IMG/VR virus record: IMGVR_UViG_3300048556_000776
Coordinates: 1-41,328 of that record
Source: a virus
DNA: 41,328 nucleotides
Strand: one strand, 5' to 3'
Every line of letters begins with the position of its first letter. The first letter of the stretch is position 1. The notes under the pieces were generated by a model that worked only from the letters and a program-made list of their open reading frames with translations, had not been told where the DNA came from and made no database searches. This document shows, one piece after another, positions 16,416 through 39,487 of this stretch. A program made the position numbers and the translations under genes.

Positions 16416-16422
16416 GTGTAAA
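16416..16422 (+). promoter_or_regulatory. Late motif GTGTAAA, 7 bp before ATG
   Basis: GTGTAAA, then exactly 7 bp, then ATG 16430. No TTGACA-type box is present. First gene of the late region. Confidence 0.65.
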
Positions 16423-16429
16423 GCAAAGT

Positions 16430-16624
16430 ATGAAAAAAGTTGAGTTTTATAATGTAAAAAAGAAGACTAAAGTTCAGATAGCCGCCGAACTAGTCAAAAA
16501 GAAAACTTATCAAATGGTTACTAAGGGAGGGAAGACATCTAAGCGTTATGCGCTTAAAGCCGTGGATGAAGATGGAACTAAATTAACAAAATTTTGCAGC
16601 AAAGCAGATTACGACAAACTTTAA
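16430..16624 (+). CDS. Small basic phage protein (DEDGTKLTKF type)
   Basis: 64 residues. The C-terminal ALKAVDEDGTKLTKFCSKAD resembles the end of short proteins found in marine phages (xDEDGTKLTRFVSKxDY). Basic overall; function is unknown. It is coupled to the oxygenase gene by TAATG. Confidence 0.65.
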   Translation: MKKVEFYNVKKKTKVQIAAELVKKKTYQMVTKGGKTSKRYALKAVDEDGTKLTKFCSKADYDKL

Positions 16625-17211
16625 TGTCTTTTTACGAACTTAGTGATTTCCCTCAATTAACTGAGTTAGTCGAAAATTGGAAAACTATTAAAGAGGAATC
16701 TTCGCGCCTCGACAATTATAACTTAAATATAAATAGAGTTAATAAAGATCATGAAGTTGTAGCTGAAGAAATATTAAAAAAAATTAAATTAAATAAAAAA
16801 AATGGATGGGTTGATGGGTGGAATAACAAAGGCGAGGTAAATAAAAGCTGGATTCAATATGGATTAATTATTCATGATAAAGAAGTACCGCACAGTAATA
16901 TGCCAAAAACTATAAAGTTATTAAAAAAAATAAAAGGAATAAAAGTTGCGGCACTAAACATACTAAAAGGTGAATCAATATTAGGAACTCACACTCATCC
17001 AGAAATGGTTACAGAAAAATTGGCGCAAATGCACATCTCTCTTGACGCGCCAGAGCCGATGCAATCATATCTTTGCGTTAATGGAGATTTTTTTGAACAT
17101 AAAACTGGCAATTATGTAATATTTAACGGAGCCTATCCTCATTTTGCTATAAACGCAGGAAAAAAAGATAGAATAATTTTATATTTAGAGTTTAAAAAAA
17201 ATAAATTATAA
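16624..17211 (+). CDS. Aspartyl/asparaginyl beta-hydroxylase-like 2OG-Fe(II) oxygenase
   Basis: 195 residues from ATG 16624; a longer frame from 16594 would overlap the previous gene needlessly. Near residues 120-190 are LGTHTHPE, QSYLCVNGDFFEH and AYPHFAINAGKKDRIILYLEF. This matches the AspH family: the first iron-binding His in the HTHPE-like segment, the second in PHFAxN, and an Arg for 2-oxoglutarate in DRIIL. Such enzymes hydroxylate Asp or Asn in proteins. The target here is unknown; a virion or host protein is possible because the gene sits in the late region. Confidence 0.8.
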   Translation: MSFYELSDFPQLTELVENWKTIKEESSRLDNYNLNINRVNKDHEVVAEEILKKIKLNKKNGWVDGWNNKGEVNKSWIQYGLIIHDKEVPHSNMPKTIKLLKKIKGIKVAALNILKGESILGTHTHPEMVTEKLAQMHISLDAPEPMQSYLCVNGDFFEHKTGNYVIFNGAYPHFAINAGKKDRIILYLEFKKNKL

Positions 17212-17213
17212 TA

Positions 17214-17810
17214 TTATACAGAACCTGTGGGGAATGCTGCAGAAGAAACTCCAGCAACATCTGCACAACTTGTGACTTTAACAGTAAAGTCGTGAACATT
17301 TAATCCTGAGTCAGGTAAGTCAACATTTACTTGGAATACAAAATCACCAGAACCAGTATTCAAGTCTAAAGCATGAGTTAAGTGAATTGATTTGTTTTTA
17401 TAATAGTCTTCGGGTTCGCCGCTATGATAGATATGAAAATTTTGCACTTTTTCCCAAGTTGGACTCACTCCAGCTCCTGTAAATGCTATATTTGCATCCC
17501 CAGAGAATACTCCGCTTCCAGTTGCCGACTGGTTTAAGTTGATATCCCAATCTAAAATATAATCACCAGAATACAAAGTTAAAGCGTCAACTGTATTCAG
17601 ATCTCCTGTAGTCCCTTCGCCAGATCCACCTATGACAGAATCATCATCGAAAATAGCCTGTCTAACTCCTAATAATTGACCTCCAAGATATTTTGGCTCA
17701 ATTGACTTTGTTGCCATTGTGGTTCCGTCTCCAACAATTACAGGAACTCTGGAGTAAGAATTAATGTCTGATCCTGACGCTGTTAAAAGTTCTGATATTT
17801 TAGTACCCAT
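17214..17810 (-). CDS. Tail fibre-associated structural protein
   Basis: 198 residues. The N-terminus MGTKISELLTASGSDINSYS is like that of the other fibre genes in this window (KISDLTxLSxxEL). The rest is Gly-, Thr- and Asp-rich beta sequence with no catalytic motif. It has the late motif 7 bp before ATG. It converges on the oxygenase gene with only 2 bp between the stops. The shared N-terminal anchor suggests it is mounted on the same virion site as its relatives. Confidence 0.6.
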   Translation of the reverse strand: MGTKISELLTASGSDINSYSRVPVIVGDGTTMATKSIEPKYLGGQLLGVRQAIFDDDSVIGGSGEGTTGDLNTVDALTLYSGDYILDWDINLNQSATGSGVFSGDANIAFTGAGVSPTWEKVQNFHIYHSGEPEDYYKNKSIHLTHALDLNTGSGDFVFQVNVDLPDSGLNVHDFTVKVTSCADVAGVSSAAFPTGSV

Positions 17811-17817
17811 AATATGG

Positions 17818-17824
17818 TTTACAC
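17818..17824 (-). promoter_or_regulatory. Late motif GTGTAAA, 7 bp before ATG
   Basis: Minus strand: GTGTAAA, 7 bp, ATG 17810. Confidence 0.65.
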
Positions 17825-17829
17825 TACTT

Positions 17830-19074
17830 TCAGCATATTTCTACCTCTAAAGTTTCTCCGCCCTCTGTGTTTATTTGAGTCCCATTTTCTCTAAGTAAGC
17901 TGCATAAGTCTATTTCAATTGATTCGCCGCAAGTTTCTATATCTAAATATACTCCATCTTCAGTATAAATTGGAAATTCATCTTCTTGTAGTAAGCTACA
18001 GAAATCAGGACACAATTCAACATCTATCGTTTGATTATCTTCTGCATTAAGGCTATCACCATTTTCTTGGGCTATAGAACATATATTAAAAACATTAACA
18101 GATCTAGATACTGTACTAAAACCTCCATCAAAATCAGTCACGCTATAAACAACTGAATAATTATTTAATATAGATGTATCTACTGTATTTTCTATAGTTA
18201 TTCTGTTTGTAATATCACCATCGTCTTTATCAAACGCAACTGCACCTGCATCAATATAAGTCGATCCTTGAGGTGCATTGACTATAGGGCTACCAAGCAA
18301 ACTAATAACAGGAGGGTTATTAATAACAACTACAGTTCTACTTACAGATGATGTCAACCCACCAGAATCAGTTACCTGATAAGATACTTCATATACTCCG
18401 TTAACATTAGTATTCACGTTACTTGTTGTAATTATTGAGCTGGTTAAATCTCCGTCTTCAGGATCGTTTGCCGTTGCGCCTGCATCATTATAGGGCACTC
18501 CATTAAAATTTTGCACAAAACTGCTTCCAATAACCGTTATGGTCGGCGGCTCATTCCATTCCACATTGACCGTTACTTCCATACTTTCCCTTCCAGCGTA
18601 ATTATCAGCAAAAACAGTAAACGCTATTTCAATATCATCTCCAGCACTATAACCTAAATCACCTAAATTAATAGTACCTTGCAATAATCCTGTATTAGAA
18701 TTAAATGTAAGACCAGCAGGATAATTAATAGCAATATATAAAAATGGATAATTAATATCACCAATCATATTATCAGCTACAATTTGATAAGAAAAATTAA
18801 ATTCTCTACTATTAGTTTCAATATTAATAATTGAATCAGATGTTATGTTAGGAGGTGTTGCTTTAACTATTCCTCTAAATTCAGAAAACCGATAGGTTTT
18901 GAAGGTACTTCCCTCAGGAGCCAGTAACCCAATAGATGTACCTTGATCGTTAAGTTCATTCGGCATCTTATATGGCGCGCTCCATCCAGCAATACTGGAT
19001 GTACTAACTTTTTTAGAATTATTTTCTAAAAAACCACTAATTTCAGAAAACTTTATTTCCCCTTGGTCAAACAT
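17830..19074 (-). CDS. Adhesin-like fibre protein with Ig-like repeats
   Basis: 414 residues. After an N-terminal anchor (GEIKFSEISGFLENN, and later YRFSEFRGIV), residues ~75-170 resemble a cadherin-like putative-Ig domain. Two DUF5011/HYR-like domains follow, each with IxxxGS, then YxDAGAxAxDxxDGDxT and VSYxVTDSxGxxSSVSRTVxV. The end has two or three short repeats of CxLLxExxxxIxTExGxxLxIExC. These domains bind carbohydrates or proteins on cell surfaces in other systems, so a receptor-binding role is likely. Confidence 0.72.
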   Translation of the reverse strand: MFDQGEIKFSEISGFLENNSKKVSTSSIAGWSAPYKMPNELNDQGTSIGLLAPEGSTFKTYRFSEFRGIVKATPPNITSDSIINIETNSREFNFSYQIVADNMIGDINYPFLYIAINYPAGLTFNSNTGLLQGTINLGDLGYSAGDDIEIAFTVFADNYAGRESMEVTVNVEWNEPPTITVIGSSFVQNFNGVPYNDAGATANDPEDGDLTSSIITTSNVNTNVNGVYEVSYQVTDSGGLTSSVSRTVVVINNPPVISLLGSPIVNAPQGSTYIDAGAVAFDKDDGDITNRITIENTVDTSILNNYSVVYSVTDFDGGFSTVSRSVNVFNICSIAQENGDSLNAEDNQTIDVELCPDFCSLLQEDEFPIYTEDGVYLDIETCGESIEIDLCSLLRENGTQINTEGGETLEVEIC

Positions 19075-19241
19075 GGGAATTCTTTTTCTATTATTTTAAT
19101 TAATGGCTTAAGGTTCCCAGATTTTATGTAGTCTGCAGGATAAGCTCCTTTTAACTTCTTATTTGGTTCTCCTAACCACATAGCCGCATCACGCGGACCT
19201 AAGTGCTCGCATAATCTTTGGAAAATTTGAAATTTATTCAT
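19053..19241 (-). CDS. MbcA/ParS/Xre-type toxin-binding domain protein
   Basis: 62 residues. RDAAMWLGEPNKKLKGAYPADYIKSGN with a following LIKII helix fits the DUF2384 domain: an AxxWLxxPNxxLxGxxPxDYI pattern usually found at the C-terminus of MbcA/ParS/Xre antitoxins. No helix-turn-helix part and no toxin gene lie beside it. It overlaps the adhesin gene and has a late motif 8 bp before ATG, so it is made late. It may bind a host RES-type toxin or serve another role. Confidence 0.6.
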   Translation of the reverse strand: MNKFQIFQRLCEHLGPRDAAMWLGEPNKKLKGAYPADYIKSGNLKPLIKIIEKEFPCLTKGK

Positions 19242-19249
19242 TATAATTA

Positions 19250-19265
19250 ATTACACTAGTGTAAA
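19250..19265 (+). promoter_or_regulatory. Divergent late promoter in palindrome TTACACTAGTGTAA
   Basis: A perfect 14-bp palindrome (19251-19264) contains GTGTAAT on the minus strand (19250-19256, 8 bp before the ATG at 19241) and GTGTAAA on the plus strand (19259-19265, 15 bp before ATG 19281). Back-to-back late motifs would serve both genes. Confidence 0.65.
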
Positions 19266-19280
19266 ATATATTTAAATAAC

Positions 19281-20009
19281 ATGCCACGTAAAAAAACTAC
19301 GAAAAAAGAAGAGGCGTTTAAAATACCTCAATTAGCTAGCCCAGGTTTTAAGGTTGAGAATAAAAAATTAACTGAAAGACAAAAGGAGTTTCTATCTCTT
19401 TCTTTAGATCAAGATACGCGCATAATGTTTATATGCGGACCAGCAGGCAGCTCAAAAACTTATATGGCTGTCTATTCCGCATTAAGGCATTTAAGCAATA
19501 ATAATGATTATGATTTAATGTATATTAGAACTGTAATTGAAAGTGCTGATAAAGGGCTTGGCGCTTTGCCAGGCGATATTGCAGATAAATTTAATCCATA
19601 TATAGCTCCCTTAAAAGACAAATTAGATGAAATGTTACCAGCTAAAAATACAGCTCCCTCGGTGATGAAAGAACTAATGGATGAAAGGGTAGATGCGTTG
19701 CCCATTAATTTCCTTAGAGGCGCTAATTGGATAGACAAAATAGTTGTGGCTGATGAAGCGCAGAACTTTACATTTAAAGAGCTGACTACTCTAGTAACTA
19801 GACTCGGTAAAAATAGTAAATTATTTATATGTGGAGATTTTATGCAGAGCGACATTAATGGAAAAAGCGGATTCGGACCGATGTACGATTTATTTAATGA
19901 CGAAGACAGTAAATTGAAAGGCATTCACTGCTTTCGATTTACAAAAGATGACATCATGCGAGATGAATTGCTTAAATTTATAATTGGAAAACTTGAAAAT
20001 AAAAAATAA
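19281..20009 (+). CDS. phoH: PhoH-like P-loop ATPase
   Basis: 242 residues. Walker A is CGPAGSSKTYMA (around residue 53). RTVIESADKGLGALPGDIADKFNPY and the Walker B VVADEAQN are hallmarks of PhoH. TRLGKNSKLFICGD acts as the sensor region. PhoH ATPases are common in marine phages; a helicase or RNA-related role is assumed for them but is not firmly established. The gene is divergent from the ParS-like gene and opens the long plus-strand late module. Confidence 0.9.
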   Translation: MPRKKTTKKEEAFKIPQLASPGFKVENKKLTERQKEFLSLSLDQDTRIMFICGPAGSSKTYMAVYSALRHLSNNNDYDLMYIRTVIESADKGLGALPGDIADKFNPYIAPLKDKLDEMLPAKNTAPSVMKELMDERVDALPINFLRGANWIDKIVVADEAQNFTFKELTTLVTRLGKNSKLFICGDFMQSDINGKSGFGPMYDLFNDEDSKLKGIHCFRFTKDDIMRDELLKFIIGKLENKK

Positions 20010-20030
20010 TTGTGTATATCTTTGTATACG

Positions 20031-20597
20031 ATGGAACTTATCTCAGCAATTATAGGAGCGGTAACTACCCTGGCGGGTATTTATCTCACGCATAGATTAA
20101 AATCAAAAAAAGATCCCCTGCCTAAGGATATAAATCGCAACGATAATATTTATACTGCTCTTTCATACCTTATTGCCGAGACAGATTCTGATAGATGCTA
20201 CGTCTATGAATTTCATAATGGAGACTATTATTATAGTGGCAATTCGCAACAAAAATTTAGTAACACATATGAGATCGTTGAAGAAGGAATAAGTTGCGAA
20301 GCGTCTGCAGAGCAGAATTTAAGAGTTTCGAATTATAACTTTTTTATTAAAGAATTAATTGAAGAGGGTGGTATATGTTACTCTAACACAGAAAAAATAC
20401 CAGACCCTTTATTCAAGGAAAAAATGCATAATAAGGGTATTAAAAGTATATCTTGCGTTCCAATTAAGTTATTGAATGGTAAGATTATAGGAATTTTGGG
20501 AATTGATTATGTAAAACATACTGTAGATTGCGATCAAGACATGTTCGAATTACTTAAGAATCAGGCTCGAATTATCAGCGGCTATCTTGGAGATTAG
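20031..20597 (+). CDS. Membrane-anchored GAF-like protein
   Basis: 188 residues from ATG 20031; an earlier TTG start at 20010 is possible but adds no conserved text. One N-terminal membrane segment (MELISAIIGAVTTLAGIYLT) is followed by a basic stop-transfer stretch, then a domain with YVYEFHNGDYYYSGN and SISCVPIKLLNGKIIGILGI, as in GAF domains. The C-terminal helix would complete it. GAF domains sense small molecules; no output domain is present. Tethering at the inner membrane is inferred. Confidence 0.65.
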   Translation: MELISAIIGAVTTLAGIYLTHRLKSKKDPLPKDINRNDNIYTALSYLIAETDSDRCYVYEFHNGDYYYSGNSQQKFSNTYEIVEEGISCEASAEQNLRVSNYNFFIKELIEEGGICYSNTEKIPDPLFKEKMHNKGIKSISCVPIKLLNGKIIGILGIDYVKHTVDCDQDMFELLKNQARIISGYLGD

Positions 20598-20630
20598 TTG
20601 AATTTTATTTAATTAATTATATAATTAACT

Positions 20631-20975
20631 ATGAATATAGTTTATTGCACTAACTGTGGTCACAAAATAGAATACACATCTCCTTCTCCTAAATTTTGCC
20701 CTTCATGCGGTAGCAGCATGGATGGATCAAAAGCTTCTGTAGACAACTCTCAAGTTGATGATATTGTTGTAGAAAAAATTCCATCTATATCTAAATTAGA
20801 GTACGAAATAGATGCGAGCAATGGTAATAGAGTTATTTCTGGAGGTGATTTAAAAAATATCTCCGAATCCCCTAAAAGAAAGGTTTCTAAGTCAAGTAAT
20901 GATAGCGAAGATCTTATCAAAGAAGGTATGCAGTTATGCAGGAAAAGCAAAAAGCAGACCGATATTGATGACTAG
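20631..20975 (+). CDS. Zinc-ribbon protein
   Basis: 114 residues. The N-terminus has YCTNCGHKIEYTSPSPKFCP and the next SCG, two CxxC knuckles 15 residues apart, so it should bind zinc. The rest is polar and Ser-rich, with a basic C-terminal patch. Its 3' end overlaps the sigma factor gene by 8 bp. The adjacency suggests, but does not prove, that it helps late transcription, for example by binding RNA polymerase. A TTGAAT-N16-TATAAT box lies 5 bp before ATG. Confidence 0.7.
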   Translation: MNIVYCTNCGHKIEYTSPSPKFCPSCGSSMDGSKASVDNSQVDDIVVEKIPSISKLEYEIDASNGNRVISGGDLKNISESPKRKVSKSSNDSEDLIKEGMQLCRKSKKQTDIDD

Positions 20976-21684
20976 GAAGGAAAAATTAAGCTACGAAGAC
21001 TGTGTTGATGTAATTGATAATGAATTGCGTAAACGAAAGCACAAATGGCGCCTCCACGCTCTCGCATGGATGGATTACGATGATGTCCAACAAATAATTC
21101 GTGCTCATATTTACAAAAAATGGGATCAATGGGACCAGAAAAGAAGTTTAGCTCCTTGGATAAATAAAATAATATCCAATCAAATTAAGAATATATTCAG
21201 GAATTATTATACTAACTTTGCTAGACCTTGTTTAAACTGCCCATTCGCTCAATCTTCGGCTAGTGAACATGAAGAGGGCCACACTGGCTTATGTGGATTC
21301 ACTCCAAGCGGGGTTCAATGTTCAGAGTGTCCATTATATTCTAAATGGGAGAAAACGAAAAAAAGTGCTCATGATATAAAAATGCCATTAGCTTTAGAGC
21401 ATCATCCTCAGGAAGTATATAATATATCAGAGGAATTAACTGATATTTCCGAAGCAGAAAGAAAATTGCACACATTAATGGAGTTTAAGTTATCTGATAA
21501 ACATTATGCAATTTATAAAATGATATATGTTGAACATCTACCAGAAGAAGAGGTTGCTAAAAAGATGGGTTATAAAAGTAATGAAAAGGGCAGAAAGGCT
21601 GGATACAAGCAATTAAAAAACCTAAAGAAAATATTCATTGAGAAAGCAAAAGAAGTTATTGATAGAAAGGATATTATTTTATGA
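20968..21684 (+). CDS. Phage RNA polymerase sigma factor (likely late sigma)
   Basis: 238 residues from ATG 20968, which overlaps the zinc-ribbon stop; the longer frame from 20899 would lie inside that gene. Residues ~30-85 (DYDDVQQIIRAHIYKKWDQW, then PWINKIISNQIKNIFRNYY) resemble sigma70 region 2. The C-terminal ~60 residues (YVEHLPEEEVAKKMGYKSN) look like a region 4 helix-turn-helix. Between them is a Cys cluster (CLNCP, CGF, CSECP), probably a zinc site not usual in gp55. It is the natural candidate to read the GTGTAAT late motif. Confidence 0.78.
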   Translation: MTRKEKLSYEDCVDVIDNELRKRKHKWRLHALAWMDYDDVQQIIRAHIYKKWDQWDQKRSLAPWINKIISNQIKNIFRNYYTNFARPCLNCPFAQSSASEHEEGHTGLCGFTPSGVQCSECPLYSKWEKTKKSAHDIKMPLALEHHPQEVYNISEELTDISEAERKLHTLMEFKLSDKHYAIYKMIYVEHLPEEEVAKKMGYKSNEKGRKAGYKQLKNLKKIFIEKAKEVIDRKDIIL

Positions 21685-22742
21685 GCAAAATAGAATTAAC
21701 GGAAACTCAAAAAACCTACCTAAGGGAAAATCACAAAAAAATTCCAGATTTAATAAAACTCACTCAAAATACTTTTTTAGACGATACTCTAGATGGAAGA
21801 TCAAAAGAAGGTAGAGCTGTTAAAGACTTCTTGGTTGAAGAGAGTTTAGATTACAATACAACAAAAAAAGAGAAAAAAGGGCCAATAGAACTCGCTGATG
21901 AACAAAAAGATGAGATTCTAGACTTAGCAGAAGACGGCTTAAACTCTTTCCAAATTGCTCAAATCATATTCCCCGATGAAGAGGTAAAAAAGCTATCTAC
22001 GGAGCAGCGAACGGTTATGGCTTATATTAAAGATGTAGCGCCAGACTTGCTGCAAAAAGATGAAAAACCAAGAGTGCGCGAGAAGTATCAGCCACCAGAC
22101 AGTTTTAACGATGTAATTAACTTAATATCAAATTATACTGGTGACGAATTGAATCCTGACGAAATAGGCTTAGTAGAGAAAAAATCAGCAGAAAAAATGT
22201 TACTATTTCTATCTGCGCCAAGATTTTTAAATACAATAAATAATTATAGAGATAAAGATGATAGAGACTTATTCGAAGCTGAATTTGTAAGAGCTACCTG
22301 GGGAAAACCTGATTTAACTAGCGATGAAATTAATTTATATATTAATGTTTGCATCGATTACATTAACCTGAGAAATGTAAGTAGAAATATTGAGAAATTA
22401 AATAGAATGTTTAATGATGCTGATTCACAACAAGAGATGACTGTAAGGCTAGCCGAGCTACTTAAGACAAAAAGTGAAGAGTACGATAAGTGTGAGAAAA
22501 GAATGGAATCTCTAATCAAAAAATTAAATGGTGATCGAGCTAAAAGGCTAGAGAATCGCCAATCTCAAAATGCATCAATATTATCATTAGTTGAAACTTT
22601 CCAAAATGAAAAAGAGCGAGCTGTGATGGTAAGAATGGCTGAAATGCAAAAAAAGTTAGTGAAAGAGGAAGCAGATCGCATGGAATCTATGGACTCCTGG
22701 AAAGCAAGAATATTAGGATTATCTAAAGACGATGCAGTATAA
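21681..22742 (+). CDS. Hypothetical protein, HTH plus coiled coil; small-terminase candidate
   Basis: 353 residues, ATGA overlap with the sigma gene. Residues ~70-125 (ELADEQKDEILDLAEDGLNS, then FQIAQIIF) look like a helix-turn-helix unit of the resolvase or small-terminase kind. The central domain is helical, and the last ~110 residues form a long coiled coil. It comes before the packaging genes, with hydroxylase and nuclease genes between it and the terminase. A DNA-recognition role in packaging or in transcription is inferred; no direct family match is claimed. Confidence 0.5.
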   Translation: MSKIELTETQKTYLRENHKKIPDLIKLTQNTFLDDTLDGRSKEGRAVKDFLVEESLDYNTTKKEKKGPIELADEQKDEILDLAEDGLNSFQIAQIIFPDEEVKKLSTEQRTVMAYIKDVAPDLLQKDEKPRVREKYQPPDSFNDVINLISNYTGDELNPDEIGLVEKKSAEKMLLFLSAPRFLNTINNYRDKDDRDLFEAEFVRATWGKPDLTSDEINLYINVCIDYINLRNVSRNIEKLNRMFNDADSQQEMTVRLAELLKTKSEEYDKCEKRMESLIKKLNGDRAKRLENRQSQNASILSLVETFQNEKERAVMVRMAEMQKKLVKEEADRMESMDSWKARILGLSKDDAV

Positions 22743-23307
22743 GTATATCCAGCCCCAAAGGCTCCTGAATATCTATGATGAGATATTCACAGCTGAGTCA
22801 GTCCTCACAAAAGAAGCATGTAATTTATTAATTAATTCATTTTCTGAGCAATGTAAATCTGCAACTGTCGCTGGAGTTAACGATGGTCAAAGAAATAATC
22901 TAAATACTGTCGCAATATCATCGCACCCTGTAGTTTCAGAAATTAAAAAATATTGTAGTCAAATTACAAAAACTAACATTTTATTTCAAGAAGAAGCGCA
23001 ATTCATTAAATATGAGCCATCAATGTACTATGAAGAACATTATGATTTTTTTGAAAACCCATATGCTATGTTACCAAGTCAGTTTGGAAAGCAAAGATGG
23101 TATAGTATACTATTTTACCTCAACAGTGGAAAAAAAGGTGGAGAAACTAGATTTCCTAAATTCAAGATGTCTTTTAAGCCTGAGGCGGGCAAAATGTTGA
23201 TGTGGAAAAATTTAAAAAATAATCAGCCCAATTATGACATGCTACATGAGTCTAAACCTACAGATAGCTGGACAAAATATGCGTTAATATTATGGATCAG
23301 AATGTAG
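22732..23307 (+). CDS. Prolyl 4-hydroxylase-like 2OG-Fe(II) oxygenase
   Basis: 191 residues. It follows the P4Hc order: HYDFF (first His and Asp of the iron site), RWYSILFYLNSGKKGGETRF, FKPEAGKMLMWKN, then LHESKPTDSWTKYALILWIR with the second His and the 2-oxoglutarate-binding Lys. The N-terminal ~60 residues match the usual FLTxEECxxLI lead. Such enzymes are frequent in large marine phages; substrates are not known. Overlaps its neighbours at both ends. Confidence 0.82.
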   Translation: MQYKYIQPQRLLNIYDEIFTAESVLTKEACNLLINSFSEQCKSATVAGVNDGQRNNLNTVAISSHPVVSEIKKYCSQITKTNILFQEEAQFIKYEPSMYYEEHYDFFENPYAMLPSQFGKQRWYSILFYLNSGKKGGETRFPKFKMSFKPEAGKMLMWKNLKNNQPNYDMLHESKPTDSWTKYALILWIRM

Positions 23308-24221
23308 AACATATATGCAAGGTTTGTAAAAAATCCTTTAAGTCTGAAAGAGCACTTCATATACATATTAAGTCTCATAACATTTTATTGAGCGAATACT
23401 ATACGACTTATTATCCAATGAAGAATTGGTATAATGGTGAGCCGTTACCTTTTAAAAACAAAAAAGATTATTTTCGCAAAAGATTTTCAACCAGATGGCA
23501 AATGGTGCAATGGCTTATAAAAAACAAAGATAATAAACTCGCTAAACATTATGCAGTTAGCGAGCTCAAAAATAGAATAGATGAGAAAAACCTCTTAAAG
23601 GCCCCTAGCCATATAGAATTGCAGATATATGACTTACCACCTATAGATAGCTATAAAATGCTTTTTGGGTCATATACAGAGGCTTCTAAGCTTACAGGGG
23701 TTGAGCCAATATTTACCAAAAGAATATGTAAAGAGTTTTACGCTGATAAATACAAAGATACGCCAATATTTATAGATACTCGAGAACAACAGCCATTATC
23801 ATTTCCCAACTCTAAAACAATGAAATTAGATTTTGGAGATTATACTTCATCTGGCGATTATTACTCATATACTTATGTTGACCGAAAAGGAGAGCAAGAT
23901 TTTAAATCAACAATGTCTACAGGTTTTGAGCGATTTAAAAAAGAATTAGATAGGTGTAGAAACATGGGGTGCTATTTATATGTGGTTACCGAAAGCGATA
24001 TAGAAAAAATAAAAAAGAGAAACAATTTTTCCAAACACCGATCTAACTTAAATTACATATGGCACAATATGAGAGTATTATCTCATGAATACGCGGGATG
24101 CTGCCAATTTATCTTCACGGGAAATCGAGAAAAATCTGTAGAAATTATTCCAAAATTATTAGTTCTTGGAGATGCTTTATGGAGCACGGACATTCAATAT
24201 TATCTAGACAAACAAAAATGA
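23292..24221 (+). CDS. C2H2 zinc finger fused to ERCC4/XPF-like nuclease
   Basis: 309 residues. An N-terminal C2H2-type finger (CKVCKKSFKSERALHIHIKS) is followed by ~120 residues of unassigned helical sequence. From residue ~157 comes an ERCC4-type nuclease: FIDTREQQPLSFPN, LDFGDYTSSGDY, YVDRKGEQDFKSTM and FKKELDRC. The Asp of GDY and the (E/D)RKxxxD group are the catalytic metal ligands of this fold. XPF-like enzymes cut branched DNA. Lying directly before the terminase, with ATGA overlap, it may resolve replicated DNA for packaging; that is inferred. Confidence 0.75.
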   Translation: MDQNVEHICKVCKKSFKSERALHIHIKSHNILLSEYYTTYYPMKNWYNGEPLPFKNKKDYFRKRFSTRWQMVQWLIKNKDNKLAKHYAVSELKNRIDEKNLLKAPSHIELQIYDLPPIDSYKMLFGSYTEASKLTGVEPIFTKRICKEFYADKYKDTPIFIDTREQQPLSFPNSKTMKLDFGDYTSSGDYYSYTYVDRKGEQDFKSTMSTGFERFKKELDRCRNMGCYLYVVTESDIEKIKKRNNFSKHRSNLNYIWHNMRVLSHEYAGCCQFIFTGNREKSVEIIPKLLVLGDALWSTDIQYYLDKQK

Positions 24222-31548: not shown

Positions 31549-31574
31549 AAGCTCGCTACGGCGAGCTTTTTTGT
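31549..31574 (+). terminator. Terminator after the major capsid gene
   Basis: AAGCTCGC, loop TACG, GCGAGCTT, then TTTTG. It separates capsid from connector genes. Confidence 0.9.
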
Positions 31575-31635
31575 TTTCTATTAAACTTGAAAAAAGTGTA
31601 TATTCATTGTATAATAAAAAGGAAAGGTAAAAGGT

Positions 31636-32067: not shown

Positions 32068-32068
32068 A

Positions 32069-32533
32069 TTGAGTAATATAGGAGATTTAGCTCAGGAAAT
32101 ATTTGATCATGAATTTGATTCAGACACAGAAGTTGCTACAGTATCTTCTATTTCTGGATGGTTAGACTCTCATATAGGCAATCTTAATACTATGATACAT
32201 ACATCCTTTGATGTTGTCAATGGTGTTATTGAGCCTGAAGCTGACTTCAAAAATGAAGAAAAAGCTATATATCGAGCGATGTACCTAAAAAACTTCAACT
32301 CATCAATGTCTCGAAAAACTCTGCAGGGAGCCACTAAATCAAGCGACTTTATACAAATACGTGACTCCGATGGCTCGATGATCGTAAGACCCAATAAGAA
32401 CACTGCAGCGGGCGCATACAGATCTTTAGCTAGCGGTTATGATCAAGAACTAAAAGAATTGGTTTCTGCATACCTTTCTTTTGAAAGCAAGCCAATACAA
32501 GTTGCAGGAAACGACGCTCCATCAAGCCAATAA
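32069..32533 (+). CDS. Possible head-completion or neck protein
   Basis: 154 residues starting with TTG one base after the previous stop. It is helical and acidic, with ISGWLDSHIGNLNTMIH near the start and AAGAYRSLASGYDQELKELV near the end. Length, place and helical character fit a connector protein. No direct family match is claimed. Confidence 0.5.
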   Translation: MSNIGDLAQEIFDHEFDSDTEVATVSSISGWLDSHIGNLNTMIHTSFDVVNGVIEPEADFKNEEKAIYRAMYLKNFNSSMSRKTLQGATKSSDFIQIRDSDGSMIVRPNKNTAAGAYRSLASGYDQELKELVSAYLSFESKPIQVAGNDAPSSQ

Positions 32534-32540
32534 GTGTAAT
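32534..32540 (+). promoter_or_regulatory. Late motif GTGTAAT, 7 bp before GTG start
   Basis: GTGTAAT, 7 bp, GTG 32548. It starts right after the previous stop codon. Confidence 0.65.
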
Positions 32541-32547
32541 TTAGAAT

Positions 32548-34014
32548 GTGGACAGAACATACAACACTAGCTTACAAGGCCTTACAACTACTTGGCCACA
32601 AAGAAACGGTCAATACTTAGCTCCTGATTACGGTTATTCTGCTTCGTATGAAGGAGCTATCCGAATGTTTAGTTACGGAGATGGTTTTTATGCAATTTCG
32701 CCTAAAGGTGTAAATAATATAACGTTTTCTCTATCTTTAAATTATAGTAATTTGCACGATAGTGAAGCTAGGCAAATTATAGATTTTTTAGAGACTTCTA
32801 AGGGCCTTGATTTTCCCTTTGTTCCTCCAGACCCATTTTGCAAAAGAAATATATTTAGATGCGTAGGATTCTCTCATACTTTTAATAAAGAGAATTTAAA
32901 TAATATATCTATCAATTTAAAAACAAACAAGCAGAGCTCTTTAAATATAGAGTCCGCTGTCCCTGGTTCGTCAGAAACGTTATTGAACGCTCCTCGAGCT
33001 ACAGAATCACATACTATGTATTTATCAATTAATTCTGATAGTGTGTCGAACTTTTTACCATCAAATAGTGCAGAACATTATAAAAATTATTCTGATTATT
33101 GTAAAATAGGCTATAAAGAATACTTGAGAAGTATATTCACTAGAGAAGAGATGTTAAAGGTTTTGAATAATGATTTTACTGATGGTATTTTAAGTCTTCC
33201 CTGGTATACAATGGGGCTTATAGAAAGAGCTGCTTTAGACACTTATGGGATGCCTGATAGTACCAACGATGTCAGATCAATACATCCTGGTTATTATGAT
33301 CCTCCTAGCTCAACTGATAATAACTCTAAGCCTTTTGAAATCAGAGTTGTTCCTTGGACGCAACCTTTTGGGTATCATACGCCTGATGACACTCTTTACG
33401 CTACCTCGATATACGTAATCAATGGGCTAAACTATCTTTCGCAGTGGGCCTACCCTAAGGATATAGTAGTATTTAAGCCTGATTATGAAGCGCAGACTTT
33501 TGATAAATATTATTATTGCAAGAAAAGTCATTTTGCAAGGCCGCTACAGAGCGCTTTCAATTCTTGGCTAGACGGATCAAGTTTAGATACTGGCAGTGGT
33601 ACATGGGTAGATGATCACAGAATTCCAGGTAGTACCGATGAAAGACATTGGACTAAAAACTTTTTTTGGGAACCTAGTTACGCCTCTACAATTTCTCAAC
33701 AATCAAGAATACTAAGTAAGGTTTATGATGGAGAAAAAGTCGAGGTTCTATCTGACGGAAGAAATACAAACCCGCTAGTATTCGATGTTCAGTTTAATAA
33801 CAGAGACGATAGAGAAGCTTATGCAATTTTACATTTTCTCGAAAATAGAAAAGGTTATGTCCGCTTTAAATGGGATTCTGTACCAGAAATTTATGATGTC
33901 GCAGATAGATACTTTCTATGCAATGCTTGGAGTTTTTCTAAAAGATATATAGACAATAACTCTATCAAGGCTACTTTTATTGAAGACGCGCTTGGGGCTG
34001 ATTTAGGTTATTAA
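32548..34014 (+). CDS. Tail protein with duplicated gpM-like domain
   Basis: 488 residues from GTG. Two segments match each other: FSLSLNYSNLHDSEARQIIDFLE (near 65) and FDVQFNNRDDREAYAILHFLE (near 420). Each is followed by GxxxFxF or GYVRFKW and later FSHTFNK or WSFSKRY. This is the pattern of small tail-tip proteins such as lambda gpM. The middle contains unrelated sequence. A tail-tip or baseplate role is likely. Its stop overlaps that of the opposite gene. Confidence 0.55.
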   Translation: MDRTYNTSLQGLTTTWPQRNGQYLAPDYGYSASYEGAIRMFSYGDGFYAISPKGVNNITFSLSLNYSNLHDSEARQIIDFLETSKGLDFPFVPPDPFCKRNIFRCVGFSHTFNKENLNNISINLKTNKQSSLNIESAVPGSSETLLNAPRATESHTMYLSINSDSVSNFLPSNSAEHYKNYSDYCKIGYKEYLRSIFTREEMLKVLNNDFTDGILSLPWYTMGLIERAALDTYGMPDSTNDVRSIHPGYYDPPSSTDNNSKPFEIRVVPWTQPFGYHTPDDTLYATSIYVINGLNYLSQWAYPKDIVVFKPDYEAQTFDKYYYCKKSHFARPLQSAFNSWLDGSSLDTGSGTWVDDHRIPGSTDERHWTKNFFWEPSYASTISQQSRILSKVYDGEKVEVLSDGRNTNPLVFDVQFNNRDDREAYAILHFLENRKGYVRFKWDSVPEIYDVADRYFLCNAWSFSKRYIDNNSIKATFIEDALGADLGY

Positions 34015-34982
34015 CGAACAGATTCTTTGATTGTCACAGTACCTTCCATAAAGCCATTCTGGCTAATGGATATTTCTTGGGTATCTATTTGACCAGCAAT
34101 TGTTAATACTCGATTAATTTCTTGCCCAGGTTGATTCTCTGCACCAATTGCTTTTAATAAAATGCTAATTGTGGCATTTCTTTTATCATGACCCTTAAAG
34201 TCAATAACCTTCCCAATATCTTCGCCTTGAACAGTAACCTCTCTATTTATGTTACCGAGATTAACTTCTACGGGATGTTTTTTGCCTACTACATAAATAG
34301 GTATTCTCTCATACGATTCTGTCCAGCTAATAGACACTGGGTGCTCAATTCCAATGGTTGCTCGATTATAACCATTTAATTCAGTCGTAACGTGATTCTG
34401 AGTGTTTAGTGGAGTTATGCTTATATCTGGTTCAGCAGGAGGAACTGCAGGGGTAAATGTACCCCCCTCTAACTCATCTGGATTAGTTGTGCCTATATTT
34501 CTGTAATCATCATTCACGCTAGCTGTTGAGCTGCCATCTCTGTCTGATGTCATTTTATAAATAGAGAAATCAGCGCTTATACTTGCTGGTTTATAAGGCT
34601 CTAATGTTAAATTAAAAGAATTAAGATATGTTTGCCCAAAATTAAAACCCGCCAACCTTCCGTACAACTCATCCGCTTCCCCAGTTTTACTTATAATTTG
34701 ATCGCTATTACCGTTTAAATAAAAATCTGTATTTAAGCTCGCAGTGAGTGGAGCGTCAGGGAAATATCTATGCAGTTGAGATTGTCCTAAAGTCCTCATT
34801 GGAGGAACTGAGGCTGATACTTGTAGGCCAGCGCTTGTTGAATAAATATAATCGTTTGCGCTTGCATTAACTGGATAGTCTGGATAGTCTGCAGCGTTAG
34901 CTCTAGAGTGATAGCTCGTGCCAACCGCTCCTATATAAAGCGGTGTTTCTGTATATCTATAGAAACTTCTTTGGTTACTCAT
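34011..34982 (-). CDS. Probable tail tube or major tail protein
   Basis: 323 residues. The C-terminal half, with IDFKGHDKRNATISILLKAI and VLTIAGQIDTQEISISQNG then FMEGTVTIKESVR, has the strand pattern of tail tube proteins. It is repetitive beta structure with no enzyme motif. It has its own late promoter and converges on the plus-strand tail gene. Confidence 0.5.
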   Translation of the reverse strand: MSNQRSFYRYTETPLYIGAVGTSYHSRANAADYPDYPVNASANDYIYSTSAGLQVSASVPPMRTLGQSQLHRYFPDAPLTASLNTDFYLNGNSDQIISKTGEADELYGRLAGFNFGQTYLNSFNLTLEPYKPASISADFSIYKMTSDRDGSSTASVNDDYRNIGTTNPDELEGGTFTPAVPPAEPDISITPLNTQNHVTTELNGYNRATIGIEHPVSISWTESYERIPIYVVGKKHPVEVNLGNINREVTVQGEDIGKVIDFKGHDKRNATISILLKAIGAENQPGQEINRVLTIAGQIDTQEISISQNGFMEGTVTIKESVR

Positions 34983-34989
34983 ATTCTAT

Positions 34990-34996
34990 ATTACAC
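34990..34996 (-). promoter_or_regulatory. Late motif GTGTAAT, 7 bp before ATG
   Basis: Minus strand: GTGTAAT, 7 bp (ATAGAAT), ATG 34982. It overlaps the last base of the upstream gene's stop. Confidence 0.68.
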
Positions 34997-35502
34997 TAAA
35001 TTACCTTGGCTACCACCTTTATTTGTTGAGTATTCCAATTTTTCCAACCCCAATTCCCGTTAGCCTCAAGTTTTATAACACCATACGAAGGAAGTTGAAC
35101 CGTAACTGTATTCGCTTCTATGCCTTGTATTTGTGCGCCCCAAAATTGCGCCCCCAAGGAAGTGGGGGGATTAGTCGGTTGTAAATCTACTCTTACAGAG
35201 TTTCCACCGCCATCTGTATCTCTGGCGAACAACGAAAATATAAGATCGTCAGTGCCTAAGTTATGGGTAAAAGATAGGGTGGCGTTATTAGCTACAAAAG
35301 TAAGACCAGCATAGTTAACCCATCCGCTGCTCCAGCCTGCTGAGTTTGATGAGTTTGATGAGTTCGATGATACATATGTGAGCAAGTCTGAAATTTTTAC
35401 ATTCTGAGTAGTCCCGTCTGCCTTAGCTACTAACAACAAATCATTTTCACCTATTGAAGATGTTGTATTTAAATCCCTTACTTTTATACTTTCGATTGAC
35501 AT
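34996..35502 (-). CDS. Short tail fibre protein
   Basis: 168 residues. The N-terminal IKVRDLNTTSSIGENDLLLV and VKISDLLTYVS are the anchor pattern shared by neighbouring fibre genes. A Ser/Asn linker is followed by a small beta domain with FTHNLGTDDLIFSLFAR, as in bacterial and phage fibre tips. It overlaps the upstream gene by 19 bp. Confidence 0.6.
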   Translation of the reverse strand: MSIESIKVRDLNTTSSIGENDLLLVAKADGTTQNVKISDLLTYVSSNSSNSSNSAGWSSGWVNYAGLTFVANNATLSFTHNLGTDDLIFSLFARDTDGGGNSVRVDLQPTNPPTSLGAQFWGAQIQGIEANTVTVQLPSYGVIKLEANGNWGWKNWNTQQIKVVAKVI

Positions 35503-36869
35503 ATCTTTTCTAATTCTTTAATTCTTTTTTCTTGATCTTTTACACACTCTATCAGTAATGGTATTATACTATTATATTTTACACTTTTAAAGCCATTTTC
35601 TTTATCTTTTACGGCTTCTGGCAAAACAAGCTCTACTTCTTGAGCAAGCACACCGTAATCTTTACCAGAATATTTTGGCTGCATTTCTTCTTTCCAGTCA
35701 AAAGATATTCCATTTATTTGTTTTATTTTATTTATCGGACTATCTATTGTTTGGATGTTTTCCTTAAGTCTTTGGTCAGAGGCGCTATAGTATGCAACAA
35801 CATCATTATAACAGAGCAGGTCTCCACTGGCGTCAATTTCTACACTCTTACTTCCTGATGTATAAAAACATATACTATCTAAATCTGAACTTTCTTCTGT
35901 TGTTATATAAGTATCATTGTCTGCATCGGATATTCCTGTTAATAAGTCTGTGGTTGCGAAATCTCCCGTTTGACCCGTAGTGACAAACACACCAGTTTCT
36001 CCAGTAGTTACAAAATCTCCCGTTTGACCTGTAGTGACGAAAACGCCAGTTTCTCCAGTACTTACAAAATCTCCTATTTCTATTCCAGTTAATACGGGAA
36101 CACCGCTAATCGTGAGTTCTTGGCTGAAGCCTCCTATTTGTCCTGTTGTGGTGCCAAAAATTCCACTAGTTCCTTTAAGATTATACCCACTAATATCGCC
36201 TGTGGTGGAGATATCAGTCACAGATTCTACAAACATTTCTCCTGTAACATAAAGATTTCCTCCAATAGCTAAATCTCCAGTAACTCTAAAATCATGAAAA
36301 AATCCACTGGCACCACTCAATTGTTCTTCTGAATATATTAAATTAGAGCTTCCTGTGAATGATGAGCCGCTTTTGTATTGAATTGAGAAGTCGGGCCCAC
36401 TAACGGTTGTCGTGGAGTTAGAAAATGGAGACCATGCGTTATTGACGTAACCTTCAAATTGACCAAGTTCTGTATTGTATCTCATTAAGCCATTTGTTGG
36501 AGTTGGTCTTTGGGCGGATGATCCTGCGGGGAATTTAATCCCATCAGATGTAAAGATTCCTAATCCGTAATTTATCGGAGCAGAAAGATTTAATGGATTT
36601 ATATTAATCCCTGATTTATTTACAATTGCAGGAGTAAGTCCGTCGCAAGTTATCGAAGCAGTATTATCTCCAGTGTGAACGCTAAATTTGGTGTCGCCAT
36701 CTAGATCTTCTATCTCTATATATTTTTTTAATTTATTTATAGATATTTTTGAAGTCCGTGCGGCGTTAGAGGTTTCAGCGCCTGATTCAGTTATGACTAA
36801 AAAATCAGTTGATTCATTTGTGAAATCATCTGAAAATGTAGGTAAACCTCTTATTTTAACATTAGCCAT
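35484..36869 (-). CDS. Tail fibre/spike with S74 chaperone domain
   Basis: 461 residues. N-terminal anchor VKIRGLPTFSDDFTNESTDF; a middle part with repeated TGxTGxFVTTGETGVFVTTG units (18 residues, ~2.5 copies); then the C-terminal S74 domain: SASDQRLKENIQTIDSPINK, DYGVLAQEVELVLPEAVKD and a coiled-coil end. The S74 domain trimerises the fibre and then cuts itself off at the SxxRLKxNI-type site. It therefore probably binds the host surface. Confidence 0.85.
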   Translation of the reverse strand: MANVKIRGLPTFSDDFTNESTDFLVITESGAETSNAARTSKISINKLKKYIEIEDLDGDTKFSVHTGDNTASITCDGLTPAIVNKSGININPLNLSAPINYGLGIFTSDGIKFPAGSSAQRPTPTNGLMRYNTELGQFEGYVNNAWSPFSNSTTTVSGPDFSIQYKSGSSFTGSSNLIYSEEQLSGASGFFHDFRVTGDLAIGGNLYVTGEMFVESVTDISTTGDISGYNLKGTSGIFGTTTGQIGGFSQELTISGVPVLTGIEIGDFVSTGETGVFVTTGQTGDFVTTGETGVFVTTGQTGDFATTDLLTGISDADNDTYITTEESSDLDSICFYTSGSKSVEIDASGDLLCYNDVVAYYSASDQRLKENIQTIDSPINKIKQINGISFDWKEEMQPKYSGKDYGVLAQEVELVLPEAVKDKENGFKSVKYNSIIPLLIECVKDQEKRIKELEKICQSKV

Positions 36870-36880: not shown

Positions 36881-36887
36881 ATTACAC
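36881..36887 (-). promoter_or_regulatory. Late motif GTGTAAT, 11 bp before ATG
   Basis: Minus strand: GTGTAAT, 11 bp, ATG 36869. The spacing is longer than at most sites. Confidence 0.5.
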
Positions 36888-37115: not shown

Positions 37116-38119
37116 CCTATTGTGCCTTTTAAGGTAGTGGAAGTAAAGTTTCCATTATTCAAAGTATTTGAGTTTATTGAAAAGCCATTCTTGCGTAATA
37201 AGTGCCCCGCAGCTCCTCCACTTCCCGCATTCCCAAACCCTGCTTTAGCTAAATCTCCACCAGGCATAGGGGCAAATGTATCATCAGAAAAAAGCGTTCC
37301 AGGAGCCCCGCCATTTATAGCGGTCCCATCATTTCCATTAGCGTTCCCAAAGCCGCCTTTTCCTGCAAATATGCCAGCGCCTCCACCACCCCCGCTGTAA
37401 AGAGAGCCAGACCCACCTCCTCCGCCACCAAAAATACTTCCGCCATTATTTTCAATTTCAACATTATATTGCAAGCTAATTGCATCTCCACCATCTTTGC
37501 CATTTATGTCTGTGTTATAATTTAATGCATTTCCACCATCTCCTCCCGCTCCATAAATCAAGCCTTCATTAATAATTTTAATGTAAGAGTTATTTTCCCA
37601 CCCAGAGCCTGTTTGTAAGGCGGGCAAAGAACTATCTTTGGAATATACTACTCCTCTATTTATAAATATAATGGCTTCAGCTTCTGTAGTGTATCCTCTA
37701 GTTTGGAATAAAATTGACCTTAGATTAACGTTAATTAATGTAGTCGCATTAATAATATGTATTGCTACAACAGACGTATTTCCATTTTCATTATCGCTAA
37801 CTAAATTATCACCGTCATCTGTCTCTAACCAGCCATCATCAGAGCGCTCAAGTAATGTAGGGTAATCATCTTCTCCGTCTGCAATCAGATAATATCCAGG
37901 ATTAGCATCCATAAATTCAAATTCAGAAAACTTAAAATCAGCGCCTAGCGAAAACCCGCTTAATGTTTGCCCATCATCACCTATCCTTGGGAACGATGAA
38001 TTAAATGCAAAATTAGATATATCTCTGGTAGATAGAGAAGATGTGAGGTTTAATCCTCCAGCCTCACCCCTTATTCTCCCTAAGGAAATTGGTGAAGATT
38101 TGGAATTTATTTTGGTCAT
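37112..38119 (-). CDS. Glycine-rich receptor-binding adhesin
   Basis: 335 residues. After an anchor (ISLGRIRGEAGGLNL) and a segment with VSDNENG-type text, the C-terminal ~150 residues hold long glycine-rich loops (SIFGGGGGGSGSLYSGGGGG, then AGFGNAGSGGAAGH). This is like gp38-type adhesins of T-even-like phages, which fold as layered polyglycine helices. It probably decides host range. Overlaps the genes on both sides. Confidence 0.7.
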   Translation of the reverse strand: MTKINSKSSPISLGRIRGEAGGLNLTSSLSTRDISNFAFNSSFPRIGDDGQTLSGFSLGADFKFSEFEFMDANPGYYLIADGEDDYPTLLERSDDGWLETDDGDNLVSDNENGNTSVVAIHIINATTLINVNLRSILFQTRGYTTEAEAIIFINRGVVYSKDSSLPALQTGSGWENNSYIKIINEGLIYGAGGDGGNALNYNTDINGKDGGDAISLQYNVEIENNGGSIFGGGGGGSGSLYSGGGGGAGIFAGKGGFGNANGNDGTAINGGAPGTLFSDDTFAPMPGGDLAKAGFGNAGSGGAAGHLLRKNGFSINSNTLNNGNFTSTTLKGTIG

Positions 38120-38691
38120 AATAGTTGAGTATAGAGCCCATAATTCGAAGGGTTTGCTACCGTTCCGTTATTAATTAAAATAATTTCTGAGTTTGCGGGC
38201 CAACTTGATTCCTGCAAATATAAATTTTCAATGTCACCATTATTTGTGAACTCGTAAAAAACCCTTGCATACGGGAATCCAAAATTTCTACAAAATTCAG
38301 CAAATAAATACACTTCACCGTCGCTAGAACTTTCTGATTTATGTTTTATGATAGTTTCATTTCCTACTTTATCATCAGTTCTTAAAATTCTACCATTGTC
38401 ATCTGTAATCAAAAAAGCTCCCGTATCTTTTATCCTGCTGGAGTGGGGCTGCGAGCCGTCTTCAAACTCAGAGATTAAGAAGTTATTGTCATCATATCCG
38501 TCAAAGTTATAGAATTCGGAAAATTTAATCTTTTCATCTGCAAAATTAGGAGCATTGACATCTCCCGTTCTATATTCATCTGCCAATTTTTCTTGTATAA
38601 ATTTGTCTTGCTCAGATAGCCGCCCAAAACCATAAGAACTTTCACCTATAATTTCGCTGAAAGAAATCGGCCCTGAAGACGGAAGTGTCAT
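38116..38691 (-). CDS. Tail fibre protein
   Basis: 191 residues. GPISFSEIIGESSYGFGRLS and EKIKFSEFYNFDGYDD repeat the FSEF anchor found in other fibre genes here. A TDDNGRILRTDD unit resembles that of the adjacent adhesin. ATGA overlaps show co-translation within the fibre operon. Confidence 0.6.
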   Translation of the reverse strand: MTLPSSGPISFSEIIGESSYGFGRLSEQDKFIQEKLADEYRTGDVNAPNFADEKIKFSEFYNFDGYDDNNFLISEFEDGSQPHSSRIKDTGAFLITDDNGRILRTDDKVGNETIIKHKSESSSDGEVYLFAEFCRNFGFPYARVFYEFTNNGDIENLYLQESSWPANSEIILINNGTVANPSNYGLYTQLL

Positions 38692-39473
38692 TTTATTTGC
38701 TTGCTTAAATTTTCAATTTGTTTTTGTTGATCTTTTACAGCCTCAATTAATAGTCCGATAATATTTTGGTATGCTACCGCTTTTTTACCTTCAGGCAAGT
38801 CTTTCACGACCTCTGGAATCACTTGTTCTACTTCTTGAGCAATTAACCCCATATGGATTTTTTCTTGATCTTCAGAGTCTGTTCTTGTATATAGGCGACC
38901 ATTAAGCCTTTTAACTTTCTGAATAGCATGAGGGATTGGCCTGATGTTATCCTTAACGGAAATGTCAGAAAATGCGACAATGTCATTAGATGCATAAATA
39001 GATGTAGTCCCTACTACATTATGAACCTCAAGAGCTGCTAGACTGTTGTTTCCGATAGATGCAGATTCCAGATCTGCGCCTCCGTTTTGACCTATAGAAA
39101 TATGGTTATTAAAACCAACATTTTCATCAAAAACTTTTACCGCAGCAATATCTTGAGCATCGTTTATAGTGACAAAACTATTACCTAAATTAGTAAGAGC
39201 GTTTGTGTTGGATTCTATACTTGAGTTTAATGTTGAGAAAATATCGCCTGTTCCGTTAGCGCTTATGTCATTAGTGATAGTTAAGTCAACTGCAGATACG
39301 TCATTAAAGCTTGGGTTTCTATCTCCGCCTTGGTATAAGCCAACCTCTAGTTCAGCTATTTTCATACTCTTGGTTTGATCTGCGCTTATATCAACTATAG
39401 GGAAAACATCATTAGTCGCATCTAATTCATTAGCACTTAAAAGAGTTAAGTCTGATATTTTAGTTTCTGCCAT
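38688..39473 (-). CDS. Second tail fibre with S74 chaperone domain
   Basis: 261 residues. Anchor ETKISDLTLLSANELDATND, a beta region, then SDISVKDNIRPIPHAIQKVK and MGLIAQEVEQVIPEVVKD with a terminal coiled coil, the S74 family. The Ser and Lys of the self-cleavage site are present, but the usual RLK is VK here. The late motif is 7 bp before ATG. Confidence 0.8.
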   Translation of the reverse strand: MAETKISDLTLLSANELDATNDVFPIVDISADQTKSMKIAELEVGLYQGGDRNPSFNDVSAVDLTITNDISANGTGDIFSTLNSSIESNTNALTNLGNSFVTINDAQDIAAVKVFDENVGFNNHISIGQNGGADLESASIGNNSLAALEVHNVVGTTSIYASNDIVAFSDISVKDNIRPIPHAIQKVKRLNGRLYTRTDSEDQEKIHMGLIAQEVEQVIPEVVKDLPEGKKAVAYQNIIGLLIEAVKDQQKQIENLSKQIK

Positions 39474-39480
39474 ATAAGAT

Positions 39481-39487
39481 ATTACAC
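39481..39487 (-). promoter_or_regulatory. Late motif GTGTAAT, 7 bp before ATG
   Basis: Minus strand: GTGTAAT, 7 bp (ATCTTAT), ATG 39473. Confidence 0.68.

Follow-up and report, generated by a model that had tools for sequence, protein, structure and literature searches.

What directs late transcription in an uncultured phage whose genes repeatedly begin a few nucleotides (nt) downstream of the word GTGTAAT or GTGTAAA? The question arises from the 41,328-nt stretch IMGVR_UViG_3300048556_000776 of the IMG/VR collection, which was analysed whole and is called the window here; the record G001 is of the same virus. A first-pass annotation of this DNA had proposed that the word is a phage late promoter, and the comparative data on its placement, its recurrence in the clade and the split between early and late genes support that reading, so that the word very probably constitutes a genuine late promoter, made of one box, in a large clade of uncultured tailed phages. 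All nine sites that the annotation reported were recovered exactly, with their spacings, when checked against the sequence, and a tenth, which it had not listed, lies before phoH:

16416–16422, plus strand: putative late promoter element GTGTAAA, 7 nt from the start at 16430.
17818–17824, minus strand: putative late promoter element GTGTAAA, 7 nt from the start at 17810.
19250–19256, minus strand: putative late promoter element GTGTAAT, 8 nt from the start at 19241, divergent from the site at 19259–19265.
19259–19265, plus strand: tenth site, GTGTAAA, 15 nt from the phoH start at 19281.
26138–26144, plus strand: putative late promoter element GTGTAAT, 9 nt from the start at 26154 (putative portal).
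28113–28119, plus strand: putative late promoter element GTGTAAT, 7 nt from the start at 28127.
32534–32540, plus strand: putative late promoter element GTGTAAT, 7 nt from the GTG start at 32548 (tail protein).
34990–34996, minus strand: putative late promoter element GTGTAAT, 7 nt from the start at 34982.
36881–36887, minus strand: putative late promoter element GTGTAAT, 11 nt from the start at 36869 (tail fibre/baseplate).
39481–39487, minus strand: putative late promoter element GTGTAAT, 7 nt from the start at 39473 (tail fibre).

The start at 28127 is an internal in-frame one, the longer open reading frame (ORF) beginning at 28118, within the motif. Orthologs in related loci keep the arrangement: GTGTAAA stands 10 nt from the ATG of the 16430 ortholog in L013, and GTGTAAT is found 9 nt from the ATG of the 19241 orthologs and 10 nt from the phoH start in L010–L013, and again at 7 nt before the 34982 orthologs of L010 and L011. 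The remaining three GTGTAAW sites of the window (32708, 35539 and 35578) are intragenic.

The case for a promoter is carried by placement. GTGTAAW lies 5–11 nt upstream of 9 of the 28 starts in the right-hand, late half of the window, against a mean of 0.07 and a maximum of 2 in 2000 dinucleotide shuffles, and upstream of none of the 37 starts in the left-hand, early half (shuffle mean 0.02); the gene calls are our own ORF picks and include some spurious ORFs. An equal frequency at early genes or in shuffled sequence, which the first-pass annotation had named as evidence to the contrary, was thus not found.

The same placement recurs across the clade. In IMG/VR, 309 stretches encode a relative of the terminase that starts at 24218, and at least 572 encode the sigma factor discussed below. 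Of the former, 80 loci were kept and reduced to 70 by removing ten near-identical ones, some near-duplicates remaining; among their 735 genes GTGTAAW occurs 44 times within 60 nt upstream, 40 of these at 5–10 nt from the start. Nine whole records, with G001/G002 and G007/G008 as close relatives among them, contain GTGTAAWN{5,10}ATG 101 times and the reversed pattern 16 times, and in four large records the element stands at 5–10 nt in 42/807 gene starts versus 0/3388 internal in-frame ATGs. GTGTAA is also the top position-specific 6-mer both in G001 and in G008. A second set of 73 loci, found via the sigma factor, was cut to 69 because four overlapped the discovery DNA or were close copies of it, and has GTGTAAW at 5–10 nt in 54/935 starts versus 2/4599 internal ATGs (57/984 versus 2/4911 before the four were dropped, with 52 sites at 5–10 nt and 31 at 11–53 nt in 860 upstreams). 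Removal of similar upstreams from the 69 loci (916 to 602) left 41 GTGTAAW, 40 GTGTAT and 7 GTGTAC sites at 5–10 nt, and 23, 22 and 4, respectively, at 11–53 nt; the reverse, complement and reverse complement of GTGTAAW are absent at 5–10 nt from these 602. Across 19 large records GTGTAHHN6-8ATG is found 267 times and its reversal 81 times, with 18 of the 19 exceeding this control. In 50,697 phage records, terminase relatives matched 64, none at 60% identity and at most 27% in the best 20, and no relatives of the capsid, of sigma-a or of the second sigma factor, sigma-b, were detected there. Nor did titles and abstracts of the open-licence PubMed Central literature yield a paper on this element or clade.

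Conservation and alignment define the element more closely. Before the gene at 26154, GTGTA is present in all 32 distinct ortholog upstreams compared by hand count, in the forms GTGTAAT, GTGTATT, GTGTATA, GTGTACT and similar; since these vary beyond GTGTA, the invariant core is GTGTA, and the consensus is GTGTAWW, i.e., GTGTA(A/T)(T/A). A wider alignment of 152 dissimilar sites (181 before the removal of 14 loci and of similar promoters) was selected by GTGTA[ATC][ATC] at 5–11 nt and includes some chance sites; its core columns are fixed by that selection and so carry no independent weight, the flanks being the informative part. These display a mild A/T-rich stretch immediately 5' of the element and no −35 signal, no column from −50 to −7 exceeding 0.12 bit, which bears out the earlier remark that a TTGACA box is missing. 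The distance to the start is 7 nt in 72 of the sites and 8 nt in 33.

The early half of the window is marked by promoters of the type TTGAC-N17-TANNNT, found at 11 of its 37 starts and at none of the 28 late-region starts, as in these examples:

11356–11384, plus strand: example early promoter TTGACA-N17-TAGAAT, 7 nt from the ATG at 11392.
15214–15242, minus strand: example early promoter TTGACA-N17-TAGGTT, 6 nt from the ATG at 15207.

Of 102 occurrences of a hexamer beginning TTGAC in G001 and G008, 31 end 29 nt from the start; among at least 48 TANNNT boxes that follow after N17, 21 have their last base 6 nt ahead of the ATG. A possible third motif in G008, CTGTCAGTATTA, turned out to be part of such early promoters. 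Because the box ends 6–7 nt before ATG, many early genes look leaderless too; some early leaders are kept, as the window genes at 1532, 4566, 7034 and 10941 have sites resembling Shine-Dalgarno (SD) sequences. With the usual distance between a −10 box and the transcription start, the first base copied from the close-set promoters of both classes would be roughly the A of the start codon. SD sites occur in 0/42 genes with the late motif, 2/40 with an early promoter and 72/426 others; the same count in phage T4, as a control, finds them in 37/52 late-region genes. The suggestion that the spacing would make late mRNAs leaderless is therefore supported by the 7–8 nt distances and the 0/42 count, and the element probably gives rise to leaderless mRNAs, their 5' ends being predicted from the spacing to fall at the start codon.

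A dispersed repeat around CAATTATATGATA..CAACGACTTA lies between the early gene clusters of the window, with 47-nt copies at 5908, 5963, 8353, 9565, 12307 and 15413 and 83-nt copies at 12259, 13505, 14401 and 15365.

Which genes the element serves can be judged from family matches. The claim that all are late or structural genes stands for those at 32548, 36869 and 39473, whose products match tail or baseplate proteins; it was not borne out for the five at 16430, 17810, 19241, 28127 and 34982, whose proteins have no PHROG match, and the gene at 26154 is called portal from position and conservation alone. In G001, the 11 late-motif proteins tested include a virion structural protein, a minor tail protein and the large subunit of ribonucleotide reductase, and five of the nine early-promoter proteins tested matched DnaB, DNA polymerase, deoxynucleoside monophosphate kinase, clamp loader and endonuclease. 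The early/late split is thus right in direction, but few genes are annotated, and ribonucleotide reductase and phoH, the second non-structural gene with the motif, are exceptions. Within the late region, a sigma70-like box TTGAAA-N17-TATAAT at 31587–31615, followed by an SD-like leader and preceded by a terminator-like hairpin at 31544–31573 (region 31544–31636), indicates that use of the motif is not universal among late genes. This internal promoter and the box of the sigma operon are all that was read off a sigma70 scan of 16300–36000, which is itself near shuffle level (79 versus 69.1, sd 8.0). Elsewhere in the clade, tmRNA genes lie in G001 (L082:9103-9500, plus strand) and G008 (L102:15216-15591, minus strand), and at G025:C1:44230-46823 the terminase match is split inside one open frame of 1481 residues, which suggests an intein-like insert.

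Several observations weigh against the late-promoter reading. Counted without regard to position, GTGTAAW is not over-represented in the window (13 versus 11.2, sd 3.2, in shuffles), an ordinary count on account of which its placement relative to starts was tested instead. In the independent upstreams, 23 of the 64 GTGTAAW sites lie 11–53 nt from the called start. The record G005 is weak for the element (3/174 starts), an expectation-maximisation motif search of G005 and G003 brought out nothing clear in either, and G021 is the one large record with no excess (9 versus 10). Eight of the 11 G001 late-motif proteins have no informative match, and the ribonucleotide reductase subunit that carries the motif is non-structural.

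Two other accounts of the sites themselves have to be set against these data. GTGTAAT might be a translation-initiation signal, a ribosome-binding site in place of a promoter: the spacing to the start codon is constant, 7 nt would also suit such a site, SD sites are missing from the very genes that have the motif, and 7 of the 20 motif genes of G001 begin less than 20 nt after a gene on the same strand. To our knowledge, however, the word has no evident complementarity to the usual anti-SD sequence of 16S rRNA; many major capsid gene orthologs have SD-like sites and none of the upstreams compared has the motif; the pair at 19250/19259 is divergent; and early genes place their −10 box at the same position, all of which makes a ribosomal role very unlikely. 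That the sites are degenerate host sigma70 promoters (−10 or extended −10), for which no phage factor is needed, is highly improbable: TGTAAT is one base from TATAAT and the same genome has sigma70-type promoters, but the change strikes the second-position A, which is near-invariant in sigma70 −10 boxes, the 152 sites have neither a −35 box nor a TG extension in register, and the early promoters retain both TTGAC and TA...T.

If GTGTAAT is a late promoter, what reads it? The annotation had pointed to a phage sigma factor encoded at 20968, and this assignment is supported by conservation of the protein (sigma-a) in the clade, by its sigma-factor structure matches and by a weak match to phrog_1740. 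Its operon comprises:

20598–20625, plus strand: putative host-type promoter TTGAAT-N16-TATAAT, 5 nt upstream of the operon for the Zn-ribbon protein and the sigma factor.
20631–20975, plus strand: Zn-ribbon protein, encoded at the head of the sigma operon, with sub-threshold Zn-ribbon Pfam matches.
20968–21684, plus strand: sigma-a (sigma2, four-Cys insert, sigma4-like end), the most likely reader of GTGTAAT.

Across 27 aligned sequences, relatives of sigma-a are 47–74% identical to the window copy, and one four-Cys pattern fits all 27. Sigma70_r2 scores 24.4 bits in a genome search of G001, above the 24-bit cut-off, and 21.9–22.3 bits, below it, as a protein search; Sigma70_r4_2 stays under its cut-off in the window (E 0.09) and in L077 (E 0.0019). 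The predicted structure is of moderate quality (pLDDT 72.6, pTM 0.39). Its listed Foldseek matches (best E 0.018) are sigma factors, extracytoplasmic-function (ECF) types first, and in a second structure alignment all rows listed are sigma factors by description except 1s7o, a putative DNA-binding protein. Matches limited to the N-terminal part (about residues 3–89) are to sigma2 domains, and those over about residues 155–238, the sigma4-like end, reach Z 7.4–7.8; a sequence comparison with solved chains gave no match for sigma-a. Four members of the family match phrog_1740, the family of phiEco32 gp36, with E-values of 7e-5, 2e-6, 2e-5 and 7e-5 (gp36 itself, 1.9e-45). The phrog_234 of T4 gp55 is unlisted among the matches of sigma-a or sigma-b, and hhalign to gp55 gives a probability under 1%, with remote kinship possible.

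An ORF with a CxxC..CxxC pattern abuts sigma-a in 127/127 loci, by a permissive rule and with redundant copies included, and ends in an AT-hook-like tail in 51 of the 127 (20 of 59 dissimilar ones); this Zn-ribbon protein may be a transcription co-factor of sigma-a. Upstream of the operon, a permissive two-box promoter is found in 46/59 dissimilar loci versus 1.3 in shuffles, a stricter form in 18/59 versus 0.5; the late motif stands there in 3 of 59. A host-type promoter at this position fits the production of sigma-a before the late genes.

On these grounds we are inclined to see the GTGTA element as read by the sigma-a of the window. Some results count against this. The Foldseek E of 0.018 and the pTM of 0.39 make a sigma fold likely but leave some doubt; sigma-a and phiEco32 gp36 could not be aligned significantly by hhalign (probability 0.1%); phrog_1740 also matches another ECF-like factor in G005; and the outer positions of the element are weakly conserved, which limits its likeness to the phiEco32 promoter. 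There is, moreover, a rival reader. The sigma-b gene lies at 175586–176182 on the minus strand of G001 (L089:16386-16982) and at 133960–134586 on the plus strand of G008, in an operon with genes for a single-stranded DNA-binding protein and a glycosyltransferase, plus dUTPase in G001. GTGTAAT could be a late promoter read by sigma-b, with sigma-a in another role or acting jointly. Sigma-b is present in all four of the large records, and, of the 6 records searched that had not been picked for holding it, in 4; its operon looks early, as expected of a regulator made ahead of the late genes, and no third promoter class turned up as its possible target. Against this, sigma-b matches phrog_351 and not the gp36 family, it is sigma-a that adjoins the late genes, and sigma-a and the GTGTA element both resemble the phiEco32 sigma/promoter pair. 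The sigma-b frame of G020, a record with sigma-a and 20 motif sites, is broken by an internal stop, a weak point that may be a sequencing artefact. Among 19 large records sigma-a is found in 11 and sigma-b in 17, 13 of the latter chosen for sigma-b; as the 8 without sigma-a are also without the terminase region, presence and absence are uninformative as to which of the two is the reader. We consider sigma-b an unlikely candidate. The proposed link to the phage's own sigma factor thus holds as regards a conserved sigma-a and a phiEco32-like pair and is weakened by a second sigma factor encoded outside the window, so that the assignment to sigma-a is likely, not proven.

Of the systems already described, that of phiEco32 comes closest. 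Its gp36 promoter, as given in an excerpt of the published account, is TAATGTATA, a single short element that serves structural genes (PMC4331800). A single base separates TAATGTATA from TAGTGTATA, one form of the element studied here, of which GTGTA is the firm part; the two have a TGTA core in common and differ in the G found here where phiEco32 has its second A. The present clade resembles the phiEco32/phage 7-11 system further in having a phage-encoded sigma factor, phrog_1740 being shared weakly by sigma-a and gp36, and a single promoter element without a −35 box. In contrast, the three TAATGTATA sites in the first 42 kb of phiEco32 lie 33–59 nt from starts and give SD-containing leaders, whereas the spacing here is mostly 7–8 nt and SD sites are absent from the motif genes; records of the present clade reach 211 kb, against 77.6 kb; and sigma-a has a four-Cys insert and a Zn-ribbon partner. 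The system thus appears to work like that of phiEco32, yet falls outside the gp36-type class, in which we do not place it because leader structure and element differ.

The annotation had drawn its parallel with T4, whose late promoters are single −10-like elements with no −35 box, at which a phage sigma factor redirects the host polymerase. The parallel stands in these respects; phiEco32 gp36 is nearer than T4 gp55, since sigma-a matches phrog_1740 weakly, phrog_234 is unlisted and the promoters share TGTA. The T4 element, TATAAATA, is different from GTGTAWW and stands 14–28 nt from starts at genes mostly endowed with SD sites; T4 late transcription also depends on a clamp (gp45) and a co-activator (gp33), and a clamp loader is encoded in G001. 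Leaderless genes of mycobacteria and other bacteria have a −10 box about 6–7 nt before the start codon and no SD site; those are cellular genes, and here the arrangement marks both temporal classes of a phage clade. The late promoters of the giant phages phiKZ and AR9 are likewise very short elements, read, however, by phage multisubunit polymerases, and untranslated regions of 26–491 nt are given for AR9 in an excerpt of its description (PMC5312081).

As to the host, a terminase scan of reference genomes gave four contigs, in bins assigned to Halobacteriovorax, an uncultured bacterium, Flavobacteriaceae and Verrucomicrobiales; as these conflict, the contigs were taken as co-binned phage and give no host assignment. 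In the four assemblies the pattern TTGAC-N17-TANNNT-N6/7-ATG, of the leaderless early type, and its reverse number 20/6 in G010, 2/3 in G011, 18/1 in G012 and 6/3 in G013; G010 (behind L117) and G012 (behind L119) thus have an excess of the pattern, to which phage contigs may contribute some of the G010 hits.

We propose that host RNA polymerase would transcribe the early genes from TTGAC-N17-TANNNT promoters, and that a weaker host-type promoter would serve the Zn-ribbon and sigma operon (20631–21684). Sigma-a, ECF-like and with its invariant four-Cys insert, would then most likely redirect host RNA polymerase to the −10-like GTGTAAT, by analogy with phiEco32 gp36 at TAATGTATA. The first transcribed base is predicted from the spacing of the element to lie at or beside the start codon, so that leaderless mRNAs would come from most late genes next to a promoter and from many early genes, and genes further down operons could use SD sites. 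Taken whole, this model of a late promoter, sigma-a as its reader and leaderless mRNAs seems to us likely. The more general statement, that the lineage makes most promoter-proximal genes leaderless and has its late programme set by a sigma-a/Zn-ribbon complex on an element of 5–7 bp without a −35 box, has in our view a little less than an even chance of being right. If true, it would point to a host that has leaderless initiation among its main routes into translation. The element would provide a readable late-gene signal for common uncultured viruses, as 309 stretches with the terminase and at least 572 with the sigma factor attest, and would help in recognising late genes where only the sequence is to hand. 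Phages seemingly leaderless in both temporal classes would, finally, offer a natural system for the study of leaderless initiation and of minimal promoters.

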